From the NCBI GenBank assembly GCA_030427905.1, contig JAUICL010000003.1, forward strand, positions 558,001 through 622,000: DNA of 64,000 bases. The letters are read 5' to 3'. Shown here in pieces: positions 45,967 through 61,938 of this stretch. Within the stretch, counting starts at the first letter, position 1. Every line of letters starts with the position of its first letter. This DNA comes from Bacteroidia bacterium (lineage in GTDB: Bacteria > Bacteroidota > Bacteroidia > Flavobacteriales_D > Cryomorphaceae). The notes below the pieces were generated by a model. It was not told where the DNA came from. It was given only the letters and a program-made list of their open reading frames with translations, and searched no databases. The position numbers were made by a program, and so were the translations under genes.

Positions 45967-45999
45967 CGCTAATTTAAAACCAGTCTAAATTAACATAGC

Positions 46000-47211
46000 G
46001 TGAAAATCAAAGCTTTACTCATAGGATCAATTTTGGCAACGACCAACATGGTAGGCCAAGTAGTAAACGAAACTGTAGAAACAGGACCGGGTTACGCCCA
46101 ACAAGTTTGGTACGATCTCCAAACTGGAAATCAGTACAGCGCCGAACTCGATAACTGGGATCTGGCATTCGAAATTTCTGGTTTCACGGCATCTATCCGT
46201 GCCAACTGCCAGAAAGGTTTGGAAGTGTACAATGCACCCGTTGCTATCGAAGATTGGGCAACGATAACCGACGATTCGGAAGTAGCGAACTGGGAGAAAC
46301 TATACAACAGCGCTACAAGCTGGGGTGTAGGAGCTTTCAATAGGTACAGCAGTTCTGAGACTGATTTGGGATGGGGTGACTACAACTTCATTACACACGT
46401 TGTATCCGGAGATAGCGTACAGGTGATCAAACTTGCCGATGAGACTTACAAGAAAATCATGATCGAGTCTTTGGCAGGTGGGATTTACACCTTCACTTAC
46501 GCCAATTTGGATGGTTCTGACGAAGTAACCATGGAAATAGACAAAGCAAATTACTCAGGTAAGAACTTTGTGTACTACAGCATCGAAACGGGCGAAATAC
46601 TTGATCGCGAGCCACTATCATCAGAGTGGGACATCACATTCACTCGATTTATTGATGATTACAACGGTACTCCATACGCCGTGGCTGGTGTCATGCACAA
46701 TCACTTTGTAGAAGTGAGCGAAGTGGGTGAAACAGATGTTACCATTGCCGAGCCAGGTGAGTTTAGCGCAGCTATCAATACCATTGGTTTTGATTGGAAA
46801 ACTTTCGACTTCACAGAAGGCTGGCTATTGACAGAAGACCTAAGCTACTTCGTGAAGACTGAAAATGGTGACACTTACCAAATTGTATTTACCGGTTTCG
46901 GTGGATCTGGCACAGGAGTTTACGAAATGGGCATCAGCTTCTACGGCGTGTTGAGCTCAAACGATGTGGATCCAACCGCTGGTCTTTCAATTTTCCCAAA
47001 TCCAAGCACCACTGGTTCTTTCCAGATCGAAGGAATTGAAGGAAACACAAACATTCAGTTGATCGACCAAACGGGTCGCGTAGTGCGCTCTATCGAAAGT
47101 GCAAACCGCACGGAAAGAGTGTCAACTGATGGCCTTGCTTCAGGAATATACTTTGTTCGCGTGAACCAAGATGCGCAAACAACTACATACAAAATCATCA
47201 TCAACGGATAA
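46000..47211 (+). CDS. HmuY-like protein with T9SS sorting domain
   Basis: A 403-residue exported protein starting at GTG 46000, with a signal peptide ending near MVGQ. The body resembles the HmuY haem-binding fold: it opens GPGYAQQVWYDLQTG, and has WDITFTRFIDDYNGTPYAVAG and later FDWKTFDF, all mirrored in the lipoprotein at 50557. It ends in a T9SS type A sorting domain (LSIFPNPSTTGSFQIEGI...GIYFVRVN), so it should be carried across the outer membrane and attached or released. It leads a cluster with a DUF6607-like protein, a TonB receptor and a second HmuY-like protein. Haem binding is inferred from the family, not shown. Confidence 0.85.
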   Translation: MKIKALLIGSILATTNMVGQVVNETVETGPGYAQQVWYDLQTGNQYSAELDNWDLAFEISGFTASIRANCQKGLEVYNAPVAIEDWATITDDSEVANWEKLYNSATSWGVGAFNRYSSSETDLGWGDYNFITHVVSGDSVQVIKLADETYKKIMIESLAGGIYTFTYANLDGSDEVTMEIDKANYSGKNFVYYSIETGEILDREPLSSEWDITFTRFIDDYNGTPYAVAGVMHNHFVEVSEVGETDVTIAEPGEFSAAINTIGFDWKTFDFTEGWLLTEDLSYFVKTENGDTYQIVFTGFGGSGTGVYEMGISFYGVLSSNDVDPTAGLSIFPNPSTTGSFQIEGIEGNTNIQLIDQTGRVVRSIESANRTERVSTDGLASGIYFVRVNQDAQTTTYKIIING

Positions 47212-47215
47212 TACA

Positions 47216-48121
47216 ATGAAAAATCTGACCGCTCTTTTTCTAGCCCTTCTCGCTACTACGAGCCTATTCTCGCAGGATGCGAAGAAATCTGCAGACATCG
47301 AAGCCATCAAATCGATGGTAGGATGCTACAAAGTAAGCTTTGACTTTGCAGAAACCTTCTCGCCCGACACGGCTTATGAATACTACGACCGATACAGTAC
47401 ATCGGGAATCGAATACGTGACTATTGTAGCAGATGAGCCGAATTTTATTTCGTTTCAACACCTGCTGGTAATCAACGACACGATGGTAATCAAGCACTGG
47501 CGACAAGACTGGGTTTACGAAGAGAATGAACTTCTCGTATACGACAAAGATCAAACGTGGAAGAAGATCAGTTTTACCGACGAAGAAGTCGCTGGAACGT
47601 GGACTCAAAAAGTGTTTCAAGTAGACGATAGCCCGAGATACGAAGCAAAAGGTACGTGGGTACACGTAGACGGGAAGCACTACTGGGAAGCTACTGGCGA
47701 TGCTCCCCTTCCACGAAGAGAATATACCAAGCGAAGCGACTACAACGTGATGCGTCGTAACAGCCGCATTGAAATCACCGAAAACGGTTGGTTCCTCGAG
47801 CAGGACAATGAAAAAATCGTTCGTGATGAAACAGGCGATAAAGTGATTTGCTACGAGAAGGGAATGGAAGCTTTTACTACGGGTGATTACAGTTGCCAAG
47901 CGGCAGTGGATTACTGGGAGAAAAACAACATTTTCTGGAATGACGTGCGCTTGGCATGGGATGAATTGTTTGAAGAAAACCAAACGATGAAATTGAAGGC
48001 CAAAGTCGACAATAAGCACCTATGGCAAAACTTGTTTGAAATGGGTGGTACATACGACAAGTCAACAAAAAAACACCGTGCAGAAATCAAGGAGTGTATT
48101 GCAAAATACATGGAATCCTAA
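47216..48121 (+). CDS. DUF6607-like secreted protein
   Basis: A 301-residue exported protein; ATG 47216 lies four bases after the stop of the HmuY-like gene and opens a signal peptide ending LFSQ. The longer frame from 47171 overlaps that gene and lacks a signal peptide. Mature features include SMVGCYKVSFDFAETF at the N-terminus and many conserved Trp/Tyr residues (KHWRQDWVYEENELLVYD, GTWVHVDGKHYWEATGDAPL). I associate this with the DUF6607 family, which I recall beside TonB receptors and HmuY proteins, but this is from memory. Function is unknown; co-transcription suggests a role in the same uptake system. Confidence 0.7.
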   Translation: MKNLTALFLALLATTSLFSQDAKKSADIEAIKSMVGCYKVSFDFAETFSPDTAYEYYDRYSTSGIEYVTIVADEPNFISFQHLLVINDTMVIKHWRQDWVYEENELLVYDKDQTWKKISFTDEEVAGTWTQKVFQVDDSPRYEAKGTWVHVDGKHYWEATGDAPLPRREYTKRSDYNVMRRNSRIEITENGWFLEQDNEKIVRDETGDKVICYEKGMEAFTTGDYSCQAAVDYWEKNNIFWNDVRLAWDELFEENQTMKLKAKVDNKHLWQNLFEMGGTYDKSTKKHRAEIKECIAKYMES

Positions 48122-48196
48122 AAACAATAATGGTGAAGATGCTTTGTAAAGAGATCGCAAATACTTGGTCAGATTGCTTGAGATTTCTTTCAATAA

Positions 48197-48227
48197 AAGT
48201 GTGGAAGGATGAGATTCTTCCGCACTT
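48197..48227 (+). promoter_or_regulatory. Hairpin between the DUF6607-like gene and the TonB receptor gene
   Basis: AAGTGTGGAAG (48197-48207) pairs with CTTCCGCACTT (48217-48227) with one G-U pair and a 9-base loop. There is no T-run after it. It lies in the 237-base intra-cluster gap and may be an mRNA processing or stabilising element; the gap holds no convincing gene. Confidence 0.5.
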
Positions 48228-48358
48228 ACTTTCACCACAGAGTTCTATTCAACCCATAGTTCTGCACACTAAACTGACCAAGAAATTTAACCAATCAACC
48301 AACGTGTTGACAAGTGTGCTCGATAGACCTTTTAATCCGAAATACCAGAGAGAATAGT

Positions 48359-50554
48359 TTGAAGTACTGGCTACTGAGCATATTGTTAACTGGAATAGTG
48401 CAGTTCGCCCTTGGGCAAGAGCTGCACTTTTCTGATAAGAACGCCGTCGCCATTCCTTGGGTGACCGTGGTGAATACCAACCAAAATTTGAAGTTGATTT
48501 CAAATAAGAATGGAGTGGTTTCTACGAGTCAGTTCAAAGATGGAGACAGGCTCATCGCTCTTGCATTTGGGTACAACACCGACACCCTTGTCTATTCATC
48601 TGGGCTGAGCACCTGGACGCTCCAAGTCAAGAATCACCAGCTGGGAGAAGCCGTTGTAACAGCACAGTACGATTCGATAGACTCGCGAAAGTCGCTGAAT
48701 AAGGTGCGCGTTATTGACGGCACAGAGATGGCCGCCCGTGGAGCGATTACACTCGACGATGTTCTCAAAAACGAAATTAATTTCCGTGTTGGGAATGACT
48801 TTGTTCTCGGTTCTTCGCTCAGCATTCAAGGTGTAGGCGGCGAAGGAGTCTTGATCATGGTTGATGGCGTCCCAGTAGTAGGCCGCTTGGATGGAAATAT
48901 CGACCTGAGTCAAATCAACGTGAGTCAAGTAGAGCGTGTTGAAATCGTGGAAGGCCCACTCTCAGTAAACTACGGATCGAACGCTATTGGTGGAACGATC
49001 AACATCATCACCAAAGCGCCAAAAACAAATTCCAAAGCTGTCTCAATCGACACCTACACCGAATCTACCGGTCATTTTAACGGCTCGGCAAATGTGGAGC
49101 TCGGGTGGAAGAAGCAGAGCGTAAAACTGGGCTTTGGGAGAAATTACTTCGATGGCTGGACAGAAGGCGATGACCCATTCTACCACCAGCGATCAAACAT
49201 TGCCGATTCTTCTCGCGCGCAAACCTGGAATCCGAAAACCCAGTACTTCGGAGATTTTAAGTTCCGCCAGATCGTTGACAAAGGTTTCATTGAGCTTTTC
49301 GGTTCATATTTCGATGAAGAGATCATAAACCGCGGAACCCCACGAGGCGTTTACGGCGAAACGGCATTCGACGATTACTACCGCACCCGCCGAATAGACG
49401 GTGGTTTGAGAGGTCAAAAGGAGTTCTCAAGAGATTGGAATGGACGCGTGGTTTTTGGATACAACAAGTTTATTCGAAACAAGGACACCTACCTGACCGA
49501 TTTGACTGGAGTTGAAAGCGAGCTCTCCGCAGATCCCGGCCTGATTGACACATCAGAAGTGTCAGCTTATATGAGCCGTGGATCGATGATCAAACAGTGG
49601 AACCCAACCATACAAGCTGAGTTTGGCTACGACTTGCGTTTTGAAAAGGCCACGGGAAAGCGTATTGGCGCCGACGACGAAATTGGTGACTACGCCTTGT
49701 TTGCCACGGCCACTTGGAAAATTCACCCGCTTGTGAGCGTAAAACCTGGAATTCGAAAATCGTACAACACCCGATACGATGCTCCGTGGGTGCCCTCGCT
49801 AAATGCCTTGTACACCCCATTCGAAAACATCCAAGTACGCGCTAGCTACGCCATGGGATTCCGCGCTCCGAGTATCAAGGAACTGGACTTCGACTTTGTC
49901 GACATCAATCACAATATCCAGGGAAATGAAGACTTAGAAGCCGAGACGAGTCAAAACCTAGCACTATCGGTAAAAAGCACGGCAGCAAAATTTGGCTGGG
50001 AGCTCACCGGTTACTACAACGACATTGAAAACCTGATCACGTTGGCCCAAATCAGCGGAACAGAATACTCGTACGTAAACATTGGTCAGCGAAGAACCAC
50101 AGGTGCCAATGCCAGCATTACCTCATCAGTAAAATGGGCCGATGTAAAATTGAGCTTTGCAACAAATGGGGTACAGAACAAGTTGTCGAATGGTGACTTT
50201 TCACCTCTGACTTTCAGCCCAGAAGTAGCATTCCAGACCAGTGTTAAGCTATTTGACACCGGGTGTACACTTCACGCCTACTACAAATACAACGGCAAGC
50301 GGAAGTCCATATTTATCGGTGAAGACGAGACCCTTTCTGAACAATACGTAGACGCTTTCAGCAATTTGGATCTTTCGGTTTCCAGGAAGCTGTGGAAAGA
50401 CAAGGTTTACCTTCTTGTAGGAGCCAAAAACATATTTGATGTGACCTCACTCAATTCCACCGTTAGTGGTGGCGCTCACCAGGGTGGCGGTGAGTTTCTG
50501 GTCGCAAACGGAATTTCCTATTTCGCTACCCTTAAATTCAACTTCAATCTCTGA
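48359..50554 (+). CDS. TonB-dependent receptor, HmuR/BtuB-like
   Basis: A 731-residue outer-membrane receptor, if started at TTG 48359 (after AGAGAG), which places a signal peptide (KYWLLSILLTGIVQFALGQ) at the N-terminus; a GTG at 48314 would add 15 residues. A short carboxypeptidase-like region precedes the plug (TLDDVLKNEINFRVGN, LIMVDGVPVVGRLDGNIDLS, GPLSVNYGSNAIGGTINIIT), and a barrel follows to the terminal FNFNL. A slim plug and a barrel with FRAPSIKELDF and NEDLEAETSQN resemble haem/cobalamin receptors. Its stop is two bases from the HmuY-like lipoprotein start, so the pair is analogous to hmuR/hmuY. The haem substrate is inference. Confidence 0.9.
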   Translation: MKYWLLSILLTGIVQFALGQELHFSDKNAVAIPWVTVVNTNQNLKLISNKNGVVSTSQFKDGDRLIALAFGYNTDTLVYSSGLSTWTLQVKNHQLGEAVVTAQYDSIDSRKSLNKVRVIDGTEMAARGAITLDDVLKNEINFRVGNDFVLGSSLSIQGVGGEGVLIMVDGVPVVGRLDGNIDLSQINVSQVERVEIVEGPLSVNYGSNAIGGTINIITKAPKTNSKAVSIDTYTESTGHFNGSANVELGWKKQSVKLGFGRNYFDGWTEGDDPFYHQRSNIADSSRAQTWNPKTQYFGDFKFRQIVDKGFIELFGSYFDEEIINRGTPRGVYGETAFDDYYRTRRIDGGLRGQKEFSRDWNGRVVFGYNKFIRNKDTYLTDLTGVESELSADPGLIDTSEVSAYMSRGSMIKQWNPTIQAEFGYDLRFEKATGKRIGADDEIGDYALFATATWKIHPLVSVKPGIRKSYNTRYDAPWVPSLNALYTPFENIQVRASYAMGFRAPSIKELDFDFVDINHNIQGNEDLEAETSQNLALSVKSTAAKFGWELTGYYNDIENLITLAQISGTEYSYVNIGQRRTTGANASITSSVKWADVKLSFATNGVQNKLSNGDFSPLTFSPEVAFQTSVKLFDTGCTLHAYYKYNGKRKSIFIGEDETLSEQYVDAFSNLDLSVSRKLWKDKVYLLVGAKNIFDVTSLNSTVSGGAHQGGGEFLVANGISYFATLKFNFNL

Positions 50555-50556
50555 TT

Positions 50557-51525
50557 ATGAAAATCAATTTGCTTACACTTTCCCTTTTTGCATTGATTTT
50601 TGCCTCGTGCGAGAAAGATGAAATTCCAGTAGAAGCGGCTCAACGCGGAGAGATTTCTTCGAACTCGGTTGATATGGGAGCGGGTTACCCCAACCAAGTG
50701 TATTTCAACTTCGATTTGAATGGAGCCACTGGCTTTACAGAAAACACAGCCTGGGATATCGGGCTCGAAGGCGGAGCTGATGGATATAAAATCATACTCA
50801 ATGATGCCCGGTTGATGAGTGCGTGGAAATCGGATTCAAAAGATATCCAAACAGCGAGCGACACGTTAGGATTTGGCCAGGGGAAAGTGATTGAGAATGC
50901 AAACTTGGTTTACGACCAGCCAGCTATGGGCGATTGGCGAACCGAAACGCCTGTCTACCTTTTGGAATTGGGATACAATAGTGCCGGTCAGCATCTGGGC
51001 TACTATTGGCTTCAGGTACAGCGTTCCGATTCTTATGAATACACCATAGCCTTCAGAGAAATGGGCACAGAAGGCACTGCAACGGTCACCATCCCCAAGG
51101 CAGAAGGGTTGTCGTACAATCTTTACTCTTTTGTAAATCGAGAATCGGTACAAATACCTGCCGACAACGACTGGCACATTCGCTTTACGCGATTCACTCA
51201 CCAGTTTGATGATCCACCCCTCGCCTACCTCGTAACCGGCGTCTTACTCAACCCCAACAGCACCTACGCCATTGAGGTGTTGGATATACCATTTGACGAA
51301 ATAGATGGGGAAACCGTTGGAACACTCGACTTCACCAATGCTCCCGACGAAATAGGCTACGATTGGAAGTTTTACAATTTTGACTTGGCTTCCTATGAAG
51401 TAGATGCGAACCGCTCATGGGTCATTCAGACATCGGCTGGGTACTACTACAAACTTCGCTTTATCGACTTTTACAGTGAAGATGGTGTGGTAGGCCATCC
51501 GCAATTTGAGTTTAGCTTAATCTAA
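50557..51525 (+). CDS. HmuY-like lipoprotein
   Basis: A 322-residue lipoprotein: signal peptide and lipobox FASC (Cys at about residue 18), then a beta-rich HmuY-like body. It is clearly paralogous to the T9SS-type protein at 46000: MGAGYPNQVYFNFDLNG compares with GPGYAQQVWYDLQTG, WHIRFTRFTHQFDDPPLAYL with WDITFTRFIDDYNGTPYAVA, and GYDWKFYNFDLA with GFDWKTFDFTEG. HmuY lipoproteins bind haem at the cell surface and pass it to the TonB receptor. The gene follows the receptor by two bases. Residues that ligate haem in known HmuY cannot be assigned here. Confidence 0.82.
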   Translation: MKINLLTLSLFALIFASCEKDEIPVEAAQRGEISSNSVDMGAGYPNQVYFNFDLNGATGFTENTAWDIGLEGGADGYKIILNDARLMSAWKSDSKDIQTASDTLGFGQGKVIENANLVYDQPAMGDWRTETPVYLLELGYNSAGQHLGYYWLQVQRSDSYEYTIAFREMGTEGTATVTIPKAEGLSYNLYSFVNRESVQIPADNDWHIRFTRFTHQFDDPPLAYLVTGVLLNPNSTYAIEVLDIPFDEIDGETVGTLDFTNAPDEIGYDWKFYNFDLASYEVDANRSWVIQTSAGYYYKLRFIDFYSEDGVVGHPQFEFSLI

Positions 51526-52607: not shown

Positions 52608-55600
52608 TTACATATTCCTTCGGTACTGCCCTCCTACTTCGAAAAGTGCAGAAGTAATCTGACCAAGCGAGCAATACTTCACTGCTTCCATAAGGTATTC
52701 AAACACATTCTCATTTCGCAAGGCAGCTTCCTGAACTTCTTTCAGTGCCGTTTCCACCTTGTCGGCATTGCGCTTGTGGAGCATATCTCTCGTTTCGATC
52801 TGATCTTGCTTCTCTTCTTCCGTAGCGCGGATTACTTCACCTGGTGTGACTGTAGGCGATCCTTTGCTACTCAAAAAGGTGTTCACACCGATCAACGGCA
52901 GTTCTCCTGTGTGCTTCAAAGTCTCGTAGTACATGCTCTCCTCTTGAATCTGACTGCGCTGGTACATAGTTTCCATGGCTCCAAGCACTCCACCCCTTTC
53001 GGTGATGCGATCAAACTCGGTAAGAACTGCTTCCTCTACCAGATCAGTCAGCTCTTCGATGATAAACGATCCCTGGATCGGGTTCTCATTTTTGGCAAGC
53101 CCTAATTCCTTGTTGATGATCATTTGGATGGCGATCGCTCTTCTTACAGATTCTTCTGTAGGTGTTGTGATCGCTTCATCGTAGGCGTTGGTGTGGAGCG
53201 AATTACAGTTGTCGTAGATCGCGTAAAGCGCTTGCAATGTGGTGCGGATATCGTTGAAGTCAATCTCCTGAGCGTGAAGGGATCGGCCGGAAGTTTGGAT
53301 GTGGTATTTCAACATCTGCGCTCTCGGGTTGGCTCCGTACTTATCGCGAAGTGCTTTGGCCCAAATTCTTCGTGCCACACGTCCAATCACAGCGTACTCA
53401 GGGTCAATTCCATTTGAGAAGAAGAAGGATAGGTTTGGCCCAAAGGCGTTGATATCCATACCTCGACTCAGGTAGTACTCTACATAGGTAAATCCGTTAG
53501 CCAAAGTAAAAGCGAGCTGGGTAATTGGATTAGCTCCCGCCTCAGCGATGTGGTAACCAGAAATAGACACCGAATAGAAGTTCCTTACTTTCTGATCGAT
53601 AAAATACTGCTGTACATCACCCATCAAGCGAAGGGCAAATTCCGTACTGAAAATACAGGTGTTTTGCGCCTGATCTTCTTTGAGAATATCGGCTTGCACC
53701 GTTCCGCGCACCACGCTCAGAGTCTTTGCTTTGATCTCTGCATAGACATCAGTTGGCAGAACTTGATCTCCCGTCACTCCGAGTAGCATAAGTCCTAGAC
53801 CGTCATTTCCTTCTGGAAGATCTCCGCGATACTCAGGGCGCTTAGCTCCTTTGTCTTTGTAGATTTTCTCAATTTTCTTTTCAACGTCCTTTTCCAGGCC
53901 GTTCTCCTTGATGTACTTCTCACATTGTTGATCGATCGCAGCATTCATAAAGAATCCTAGCAACATGGGCGCTGGCCCATTGATCGTCATACTCACTGAT
54001 GTAGTTGGGTCGCAGAGATCAAATCCTGAGTAGAGCTTTTTCGCGTCGTCCAAACAGCAGATACTCACCCCAGAGTTTCCGATTTTCCCGTAGATATCCG
54101 GACGGTGATCGGGATCGTTTCCATAGAGGGTAACCGAGTCAAAAGCCGTACTCAAACGCGCTGCCGGCATTCCCTGGCTCACGTAGTGAAAACGACGGTT
54201 GGTACGCTCTGGCCCACCTTCACCGGCAAACATACGAGTCGGGTCTTCACCTACGCGTTTGAAAGGGTAAATTCCGGATGTGTAAGGGAATGACCCCGGC
54301 ACATTCTCCTGAAGCTGCCAGCGGAGTACATCTCCCCAGCTTCGGTACTTTGGCAAGGACACTTTTGGCACTTGCGTGTGGCTCAATGACTCGGTGTGAG
54401 TCGCCACTTTTATTTCTTTGTCGCGCACCTTGAACACAAACTCTGGTGCGGCGTAGCGATCTTTAAGACCTTGCCACTGCACGATAGCGTCCCAGTTGTG
54501 CGGATCTAAATCTTTTTTCAAGCTTTCAAACTCAGCGTCGAGCTTCTGAACCAGTTCGGAATGCGAATCAGAAACGACTTCGTCTTTCACTTTGTTCGGA
54601 CCACCTAGATGAGCGATACTCGTAGCCAATCCGTATAGTTTGTCGGCTACATCGGCTTGAGCGCGTACCTTTTTATCATACGCGCGATTGTTTTCCGAAA
54701 TCTCAGACAGGTATCGGGTGCGATCTGGTGGAATGATGTAGATCTTCTCTGACATCTCGCTGCTTACGCCAAACTGAGAGTTCAGCTTCGCTCCTGTTTT
54801 TTCGACCAACTCATTCATGATCTTTCGGTAAAGGGAATTCATTCCCGGATCATTAAACTGCGAAGCGATGGTTCCAAAAACTGGTAAGTCTTCGTCAGCA
54901 ACATCCCATTTCTGGTGATTGCGCTTGTATTGCTTCTTCACATCGCGAAGGGCATCCAGAGCACCGCGTTTATCGAATTTATTAAGGGCAATCACATCGG
55001 CAAAATCGAGCATGTCGATTTTCTCCAACTGTGTGGCCGCACCGTATTCGGGCGTCATCACATATAGCGATACGTCTGAGTGATCGAGAATCTCGGTATC
55101 ACTCTGGCCGATTCCCGAAGTTTCGAGAATGATCAAATCAAAATCAGATGCTTTTAAAATGCTTAGCGCATCGGCAACGTGCTTACTGAGCGCCAAATTG
55201 CTCTGGCGTGTGGCTAAACTCCGCATGTAAACACGTCCGTTGTTTACTGAGTTCATTCGGATACGGTCACCGAGTAGGGCTCCACCCGTCTTTCGCTTCG
55301 AAGGATCGACTGAAACGATGGCCAGTCGCTTGTCTTCAAAATCGATTAGAAAGCGACGAATGAGCTCATCAACCAAGGAAGACTTTCCTGCTCCACCCGT
55401 ACCTGTAATACCCAGTATCGGCGTATTGGCTTTCGCGGCCATATCGCGCACTTTTTGGATTTCATCATTAAAAGACTCAGGATTGTTTTCCGCTGCCGAG
55501 ATCAAGTGAGCTACGGCATTGGTCTCATAAGTGCCAAGCTTCTCCATCTCACCGTTTAGCTTATCGCCAGTAGGGAAATCACACTTCTCAATCATATCGT

Positions 55601-56009
55601 TGATCATTCCCTGAAGGCCCATCCTACGCCCATCGTCTGGGTGGTAGATGCGGGCTATACCATATGCATGAAGCTCATCGATCTCTTCGGGAAGAATAGT
55701 TCCACCACCTCCACCAAAAATCCGGATTTGAGAAGCGCCTTTTTCTTTGAGCAAATCGTACATGTACTTAAAGTACTCCATATGCCCACCTTGGTACGAG
55801 GTCATGGCAATGGCCTGTGCATCTTCTTGAATCGCGGTGTTTACCACTTCTTCTACACTGCGGTCGTGACCCAGGTGGATTACCTCGCAGCCCGTAGATT
55901 GGATTATGCGGCGCATCAAGTTTATGGCGGCATCATGGCCATCGAAAAGCGACGCAGCGGTTACAATTCTGACTTTATTCTTTGGTACGTATGGTGCTAT
56001 GGTTTCCAT
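52608..56009 (-). CDS. icmF: Fused isobutyryl-CoA mutase (IcmF) with G-protein chaperone domain
   Basis: A 1133-residue B12-dependent mutase fused to its GTPase chaperone; it interconverts isobutyryl-CoA and n-butyryl-CoA. The order is a B12-binding domain (about 12-145, [10 protein letters not shown] with the cobalt-ligand His25), a MeaB-like G domain (about 195-410, Walker [13 protein letters not shown]) and the TIM-barrel mutase domain. Two specificity positions read as IcmF rather than methylmalonyl-CoA mutase: Phe594 in [10 protein letters not shown], where the mutase has Tyr, and Gln782 in [10 protein letters not shown], where it has Arg. About 45 residues between them ([16 protein letters not shown] onward) look inserted compared with the spacing I recall. 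Residue numbers were counted by hand. It is monocistronic. Confidence 0.92.
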
Positions 56010-60950: not shown

Positions 60951-61938
60951 AGGGAATTGTGATTTTTTTGATGGCTGTACTCGGGCTGATATAGATGACA
61001 CTGAGCTCAAATGCTCCTCTATTGTTTGTGGCTTGGTCAACAGACGAGTGGTTGATATCGTATGCAATACCAACGGTAAAATCGCCATAAGCCACACCGA
61101 TGCTAGCTATAAACGCATCTCCGTTTCGGTTTATCCCGTCTCGCATGTCAATTCCAAGAAAAACTTCCCGCAAGCCAGGACCATTAGAAAACATAAGACC
61201 GGCGTCGCCCCCCATCACCCACTCTTGGGCTTTCTTGGCGGTACTCACCAAAATAGAAGGTTTGAAGAAAAGACCGTTTGCTGTATTGATCCGCCAATTC
61301 ACATAGGTATTACTCCTGATCGGCAGATTGTCCTTGTTGTCGAAAAACGAAACATCGGGCCGATTCAAATGAAAAAAGGAAACACCTCCAGTAAGAATTG
61401 AATTCTTGAACTTTCGCGAAACCAATCCACCTACATTTAGATCGAAGTAGCCCGTTTGGTTGGAAAGGCGCGACTCCGAATTGGGTAGGTTGGGGTCAAA
61501 GGCCCCGATAGTCTGATTGTACTGTTCGGGAAAACTCGTCGATGAAAGATTGAAACTCTTGGAAACGAACCCAGCTTGCAGTCCAGCGCTATAGGTCCAC
61601 ACGCTTGTTTCCTTCTTGTAGCCCAAGCTTAGGTAAAATCGGTTTTGCGATAAATCAACTGCTCCGCTGTTGTCGGATAGAAAAATCAATCCTGCCGAAA
61701 ACTGACCTGGTAGTCCGTAAACGTTTTGGTCATAGGCAGCTGATATGGTCTGGTATGGCTTGGCAATCGCTTTCCACTGCTCGCGATAATTGATAATGGC
61801 TCTCCAGTCTCCGTCATACACTCCCGTTTCTGCGGGGTTCATGGTCAAAGGAGAAAAGTCGTACATCGAAAAATGCACGTCCTGGCCTTTCGCTGAAAAC
61901 ACACTAATGAATAGAATAAGGAGTAAAAACGCTCTCAT
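60937..61938 (-). CDS. PorP/SprF family T9SS membrane protein
   Basis: A 333-residue outer-membrane barrel with signal peptide ending FSAKGQ. The opening DVHFSMYDFSPLTMNPAETG is diagnostic of the PorP/SprF family, whose members attach or export specific T9SS cargo such as gliding adhesins. Further marks are NYREQWKAIAKPYQTISAAYDQ and FSAGLIFLSDNSG. Its start ATG immediately follows the stop of the M43 protease gene, and its end overlaps the PorE-like gene, so all three form one operon. It is probably dedicated to the PKD adhesin encoded divergently at 62861. Confidence 0.92.
   Translation of the reverse strand: MRAFLLLILFISVFSAKGQDVHFSMYDFSPLTMNPAETGVYDGDWRAIINYREQWKAIAKPYQTISAAYDQNVYGLPGQFSAGLIFLSDNSGAVDLSQNRFYLSLGYKKETSVWTYSAGLQAGFVSKSFNLSSTSFPEQYNQTIGAFDPNLPNSESRLSNQTGYFDLNVGGLVSRKFKNSILTGGVSFFHLNRPDVSFFDNKDNLPIRSNTYVNWRINTANGLFFKPSILVSTAKKAQEWVMGGDAGLMFSNGPGLREVFLGIDMRDGINRNGDAFIASIGVAYGDFTVGIAYDINHSSVDQATNNRGAFELSVIYISPSTAIKKITIPCDRY

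Follow-up and report, generated by a model that had tools for sequence, protein, structure and literature searches.

Why would a bacterium place two HmuY-like proteins, one tailed for the type IX secretion system (T9SS) and the other a lipoprotein, together with a DUF6607 protein around a single TonB-dependent receptor? The question is raised by four genes in a 64,000-nucleotide stretch of a Cryomorphaceae genome (hereafter the window), which an original prediction had read as a haem relay. We consider it likely that they form an operon for the uptake of haem (haem-iron) that is under Fur-type control and belongs with the Hmu/Hfp/Rhu systems. Its make-up is composite, with three predicted extracellular haem binders and one receptor; what is unusual is how they are combined, each part being of a known kind. 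The genes and sequence elements on which this reading turns are as follows:

45972..45990, no strand assigned: Fur-type box ATTTAAAACCAGTCTAAAT, 9 bp before the start codon of gene 1.
46000..47211, + strand: gene 1, HmuY-family protein with a T9SS type A sorting domain (Pfam/NCBIfam, predicted model, fold comparison).
47216..48121, + strand: gene 2, RhuH-family haemophore (Pfam DUF6607; PDB 8XJC match), predicted haem ligand His94.
48314..50554, + strand: gene 3, TonB-dependent receptor (Plug and barrel domains).
49859..49927, + strand: haem-receptor-like FRAP...NH..GN box FRAPSIKELDFDFVDINHNIQGN of the receptor, containing a His (from the sequence).
50557..51525, + strand: gene 4, HmuY-family lipoprotein, lipid Cys18 (Pfam HmuY; lipobox by reading).

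The four plus-strand open reading frames lie in line and nearly touch, except that about 190 bp separate gene 2 from the listed start of gene 3, and their domain types are those originally predicted, with Pfam/NCBIfam matches above curated cut-offs. Signal peptides and the lipobox were judged by reading the sequence: the listed start of gene 2 (47171) overlaps gene 1 and an ATG at 47216 opens a putative signal peptide, and for gene 3 an alternative TTG start at 48359 gives a cleaner one.

Gene 2 had been left in an unknown role, and this can now be replaced: DUF6607 is the RhuH haemophore family. The protein matches Pfam DUF6607 at 1.5e-107, and a profile of 35 relatives, hand-picked out of 81 sequences, found one strong match among solved structures, 8XJC (1.5e-114; the next, 0.17), which is RhuH from Riemerella anatipestifer; the gene 2 protein alone finds it with E 3.8e-76. 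Its predicted model (pLDDT 93.2) superposes on 8XJC with Z 36.2 and a root-mean-square deviation of 1.6 over 270 aligned residues, at 46% identity. The haem ligand His96 of RhuH corresponds to His94 of the window protein, and the propionate contacts Arg143, Tyr144, Arg170, Arg183 and Gln198 to Arg141, Tyr142, Arg168, Arg181 and Gln196, respectively, all six residues being invariant in 35/35 aligned relatives. A bilin lyase or a nitrobindin was also considered and rejected, CpeS lyase and nitrobindin reaching only Z ~10, far below the RhuH match. According to the excerpts of the papers that were available, to which all our statements on published work refer, RhuH binds haemin with a dissociation constant of 3.44e-11 M, His96Ala lowers the affinity to 2.0e-5 M, the protein is released in vesicles and occurs there under iron limitation, and its haem complex is an AlphaFold3 model rather than a crystal structure (PMC11967795). 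Because of the homology with RhuH and the invariant pocket residues, gene 2 most likely encodes a soluble haemophore. DUF6607 was not mentioned in the literature searched.

The product of gene 1 carries the two parts ascribed to it. Its tail is recognised by Pfam (Por_Secre_tail, 5e-13) and NCBIfam (TIGR04183, 6.4e-14), and the part before it matches Pfam HmuY (PF14064) at 5.1e-9, with 36.9 bits against a cut-off of 27. The predicted model (pLDDT 90.3, pTM 0.74) follows a signal at about residues 1-20, assigned by reading, with an HmuY-like fold over about residues 17-318, which includes a large insertion, and a C-terminal domain at about 323-403; the idea that HmuYs of ~320 residues consist of two tandem domains was rejected because the fold comparison spreads a single fold over the whole of the former region. 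Foldseek alone gave weak matches (PinO, E 3.6e-4, query template-modelling (TM) score 0.28; BVU_2192, E 2.3e-3, query TM 0.19). Re-alignment with VIA, by which the structural check proposed for this domain recovered the HmuY fold, gave Z 11.4-13.3 across the seven best rows, the top ones being PinO (13.3), BVU_2192 (12.5) and HmuY 3h8t (12.5) over 132-136 residues, and superposed residues 323-403 on T9SS C-terminal domains with Z up to 10.9. Four of these seven rows name HmuY or HmuY-like in the title; the other three, PinO, BF2707 and BfrB, we take to be HmuY relatives. The genome encodes SprA (2546 bits) and 15 PorP/SprF-family matches, making T9SS export possible, and the gene 1 product is predicted from its sequence to leave by this route and to be either fixed on the surface or released from it. 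One PorP/SprF-family gene, found in the genome search, lies in the window itself:

~60991-61929 (G000:C3:618991-619929), - strand: PorP/SprF-family gene.

Gene 4 matches Pfam PF14064 at 1.4e-12 (48.4 bits, cut-off 27). It aligns with gene 1 at 28% over 151 amino acids (E 2e-10), and along the full length in family alignments, and a search of the genome (99.77% complete) with an alignment of both found these two as the sole matches, so that the proposed pair of homologues with different anchoring routes, T9SS tail and lipobox, is borne out. Among aligned relatives, Pfam finds the T9SS tail in all 31 long paralogues and HmuY, at 0.001, in 21 of them; the 30 lipoproteins all have the lipid Cys and the Pfam HmuY match. 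In a tree of 105 sequences, with tails trimmed and the root not fixed, 35/35 T9SS proteins fall on one side of a branch with SH-aLRT 100, and 32 paired lipoproteins share the other side with 38 single-HmuY proteins, a separate lipoprotein group being unsupported; one old T9SS-HmuY lineage would fit this tree better than repeated gain of tails. With the tail present in every aligned long paralogue, and a T9SS-secreted HmuY in print for Flavobacterium columnare (PMC9618737), the tailed protein is not the unusual part that it had been taken for.

Gene 3 matches Plug (2.3e-19) and the TonB barrel (2.9e-31), and the box listed above contains the FRAP, His and NxxL-type elements as defined in PMC9331221. 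In 78 surveyed receptors we found the strict FRAP/NH/GN pattern in 30, another FKAP type in 19 and neither in 29; a looser version of the pattern is present in 16/20 receptors of a second set.

Regulation points to iron. The box before gene 1 agrees at 13/14 half-site positions with the published Riemerella Fur box (R. anatipestifer boxes read ATTTAGAATTATTCTAAAT and, upstream of hmuR, ATTTAAAATTATTCTAAAT), and its 21-base version, at 15/16, is the sole window site at 13 or above; none of 2000 Markov shuffles of the intergenic stretch reaches its score, for a box that had been spotted by eye before being scored. At a threshold of at least 12/14, a box precedes 67/81 operons of a first survey versus 26/630 other upstream regions, and 11/18 operons of a second set versus 5/117 controls, counts that are uncorrected for phylogeny in loci related by descent. 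Five matches to the Fur family, one strong, were found in the genome. As a separate observation on these upstream regions, a LuxR-type-like gene, presumably a response regulator, stands directly before the operon in 13 loci (L006, L007, L012, L013, L016, L019, L020, L025, L031, L034, L042, L099, L100); it was not seen in the window.

How constant is this set of genes? The survey seeded with DUF6607 took the best 80 of at least 593 relatives, is by design silent on HmuY without DUF6607, and used regular expressions for its T9SS and lipobox labels. In 74/80 loci, DUF6607 has a TonB receptor as well as an HmuY within 6 kb; T9SS and non-T9SS HmuYs are found together in 15 (plus the window), only a non-T9SS HmuY in 57, only a T9SS HmuY in two, both at contig ends, and neither receptor nor HmuY in six. 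Many Flavobacteriaceae loci have DUF6607 divergent from TonB-HmuY, like rhuH from rhuR-rhuA. Two further genes recur in these loci: a conserved one of ~184 residues, which we take to be FMN-binding-like, adjoins DUF6607 in 16, mostly Flavobacteriaceae (e.g. L039, L044, L047), and a small DoxX-like membrane protein, absent from the window, lies near DUF6607 in 36/80 (e.g. L003:7214-7639, whose product matches MauE and DoxX, both below cut-off).

A survey of the order (120 genomes) found DUF6607 in 14 and an adjacent HmuY pair, meaning two matches on one contig and strand less than 9 kb apart, in 40; it used rows of at least 119 bits, which kept 45 of 53 matching genomes, the omitted rows being fragments or tail-only. 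DUF6607 has a match anywhere in the genome (in G046, on a different contig) in ten of the 40 pair genomes and in none of the other 30, and four DUF6607 genomes are without the pair. The two-HmuY pair is a more stable core than the DUF6607 association. The spacing of the pair falls into classes of 0.16-0.20 kb (3), 2.3-2.6 kb without DUF6607 (15), 2.6-4.0 kb with DUF6607 (10), 4.05 kb (1) and 6.2-6.5 kb (11).

Regions were fetched from 20 of the 40 pair genomes (with L111 and L112 identical in contig to L005 and L004, respectively). In 19/20, gene calling gave a T9SS-type and a lipoprotein-type HmuY beside one receptor, the exception being L115, where the lipoprotein was not called; in L098 they stand side by side after the receptor. 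RhuH is present in six regions, between the pair in five and before it in L109; the receptor alone separates the pair in six, and the receptor with two unassigned genes in L105. In five regions, identified by clustering, an ATP-binding cassette (ABC) transporter cassette with a HemS-type gene occupies this place, and it was never found together with RhuH (0/20). Pfam recognised Peripla_BP_2, FecCD, ABC_tran and HemS (6.4e-75) in the L099 cassette, where the HmuTUV names rest on these families and on NCBIfam matches below cut-off, and confirmed HemS in the three scanned regions (L099, L113, L117); for L100 and L101 the assignment comes from clustering alone. A HemS-type cassette between the two HmuYs ties the pair to haem, and is the strongest context evidence for this ligand. 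Since several relatives are metagenome bins whose titles indicate sediment, groundwater or sea, the system also extends beyond host-associated species.

The operon resembles several characterised systems: (i) The published iron/Fur-controlled haem locus of R. anatipestifer has rhuH (1415) and rhuR-rhuA (1416-1417) in divergent orientation (PMC11967795, PMC5429918, PMC10986502); expression of all three genes goes up when iron is low, and the RNA-seq paper annotates 1417 as HmuY. A RhuH-family haemophore, a TonB haem receptor and an outer-membrane HmuY-annotated haem binder are common to both, with iron/Fur control there and a Fur-type box here. In contrast, the excerpts name one HmuY-annotated protein, whereas in the window all the genes point the same way and a T9SS-tailed HmuY is added. 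The RhuH abstract states that homologues of well-characterised haemophores were not found in R. anatipestifer (PMC11967795). (ii) The iron-repressed hfpR-DoxX-hfpY operon of F. psychrophilum likewise has a TonB receptor and an HmuY-like protein, HfpY, which binds haem and whose deletion slows growth on haemoglobin; the excerpt mentions no T9SS-HmuY, the FRAP/NxxL motifs of HfpR are only partly kept, and a DoxX-like gene is present as in many of the surveyed loci (PMC9331221). (iii) F. columnare C6N29_01035 shares the HmuY domain and the TIGR04183 tail with gene 1 and is listed as a single gene for haem uptake, and the excerpt does not mention it paired with a lipoprotein HmuY or with RhuH (PMC9618737). 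(iv) HmuY-HmuR of Porphyromonas gingivalis has the HmuY fold and a lipoprotein with a TonB receptor, but its ligands are His134/His166 and its companion genes differ. New here is the composite of T9SS-HmuY, RhuH, receptor and lipoprotein-HmuY, the T9SS-secreted HmuY and the Rhu locus being already known; the literature searched, which held few subscription papers, yielded no description of a T9SS-HmuY and lipoprotein-HmuY pair with RhuH, nor HmuY together with BtuH.

Besides the choice of the box by eye, several results weigh against haem uptake under Fur. The receptor misses the haem-receptor cut-offs (TIGR01785, 105.3 versus 316.85 bits; TIGR01786, 104.5 versus 323.75), and its best NCBIfam scores are for B12 receptors (TonB-B12/BtuB), yet far short (TIGR01779, 139.2 versus 599.7). 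In the second set, 7/18 operons lack a box at 12/14 or above. The genome search found zero matches to HemS and zero to haem oxygenase. No His exceeds 70% in the 30 aligned lipoprotein-HmuYs, and no known HmuY ligand pair (two His or two Met) could be placed in either paralogue, the attempt to transfer the P. gingivalis ligands by profile alignment having failed with alignments that covered HmuY partly. Deletion of the T9SS-HmuY gene left the growth of F. columnare unimpaired in the tested media (PMC9618737). The case for haem binding by the two HmuYs is built on their homology, on gene context and on the Fur-type box, and haem would be the ligand of both. Since ferrochelatase and one strong FecCD permease were matched in the genome, the cell probably makes haem, and imported haem would serve as a supplement or an iron source. 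With these reservations, the analysis supports the originally predicted haem/iron system, in which one TonB receptor is flanked by two HmuY paralogues that use different export routes.

From the computed genes, domains, folds, RhuH pocket, co-occurrence and box we infer the following course. When iron is plentiful, a Fur-family protein would repress the operon by way of the box upstream of gene 1. When iron is scarce, the cell would make the T9SS-exported HmuY, fixed on the surface or released; RhuH, a haemophore, either soluble or carried in vesicles, that would take haem with one histidine; and the lipoprotein HmuY, most likely seated in complex on the TonB receptor. T9SS-HmuY and RhuH would capture haem away from the membrane and the lipoprotein-receptor pair would import it. 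A relay, with hand-over in this order, is a fair hypothesis. Its fuller form, a three-stage surface relay in which T9SS-HmuY and RhuH hand haem on to the receptor-bound lipoprotein-HmuY, and in which RhuH and the HmuTUV-HemS-type cassette are interchangeable add-ons to a conserved T9SS-HmuY/receptor/lipoprotein-HmuY core, is tentative and, to our mind, doubtful; if true, T9SS-HmuY and RhuH would differ in haem chemistry and in distance from the cell.

It is quite possible, if short of probable, that nothing is relayed and that T9SS-HmuY, RhuH and lipoprotein-HmuY are parallel carriers for different haem sources, each delivering directly to the receptor. The 30 pair genomes without a DUF6607 match imply that RhuH is not an obligatory link, and the slot between the pair is variable (RhuH, haem-type ABC cassette, other genes, or receptor only). 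Conserved residues also differ between the two clades, the T9SS-HmuYs having a single His above 70% (His133, in 28/31) and the lipoproteins Met87 in 24/30 and Met40 in 21/30, all of them candidate ligands only. The near-constant position of both HmuY types beside one receptor suggests, by contrast, joint work.

We think it unlikely that T9SS-HmuY has lost haem binding and that, next to a RhuH-RhuR-RhuA system of the ordinary type, it acts as an adhesin, a decoy or a binder of haemoproteins. Its weaker Pfam HmuY match than that of the lipoproteins, the ligand pair not found in it and the F. columnare deletion would fit such a loss; however, T9SS-HmuY is one well-supported group that stays next to the receptor in the regions fetched, and retains His133 in most members. 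Another tetrapyrrole ligand, such as cobalamin or a metal-free porphyrin, is very improbable: the B12 receptor scores mentioned above and a B12-dependent mutase gene ending 1.1 kb downstream on the other strand hint at it, but those scores are sub-cut-off, an Rfam scan of the window at gathering threshold gave zero matches, cobalamin riboswitch included, and the Fur-type box, the RhuH identity and the HemS context all speak for haem.

The mutase gene (window 52608-56009, - strand) encodes a fused B12-dependent acyl-CoA mutase with B12-binding, MeaB GTPase and mutase domains, presumably IcmF-like. Sigma-70 and terminator scans did no better than chance level. Within the operon, folding of 48122-48358 (z -1.86 for the whole stretch) gave one element, which could set the ratio of carrier to receptor:

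48197..48227, + strand: RNA hairpin predicted in the gap that separates genes 2 and 3, its stem 14 pairs long.

For the family, these results mean that DUF6607 gains a solved and mutated representative and that RhuH is tied to HmuY systems across the Bacteroidota. For the organism, they raise a question that can be put to the test: why a single receptor has two or three differently anchored haem carriers serving it.

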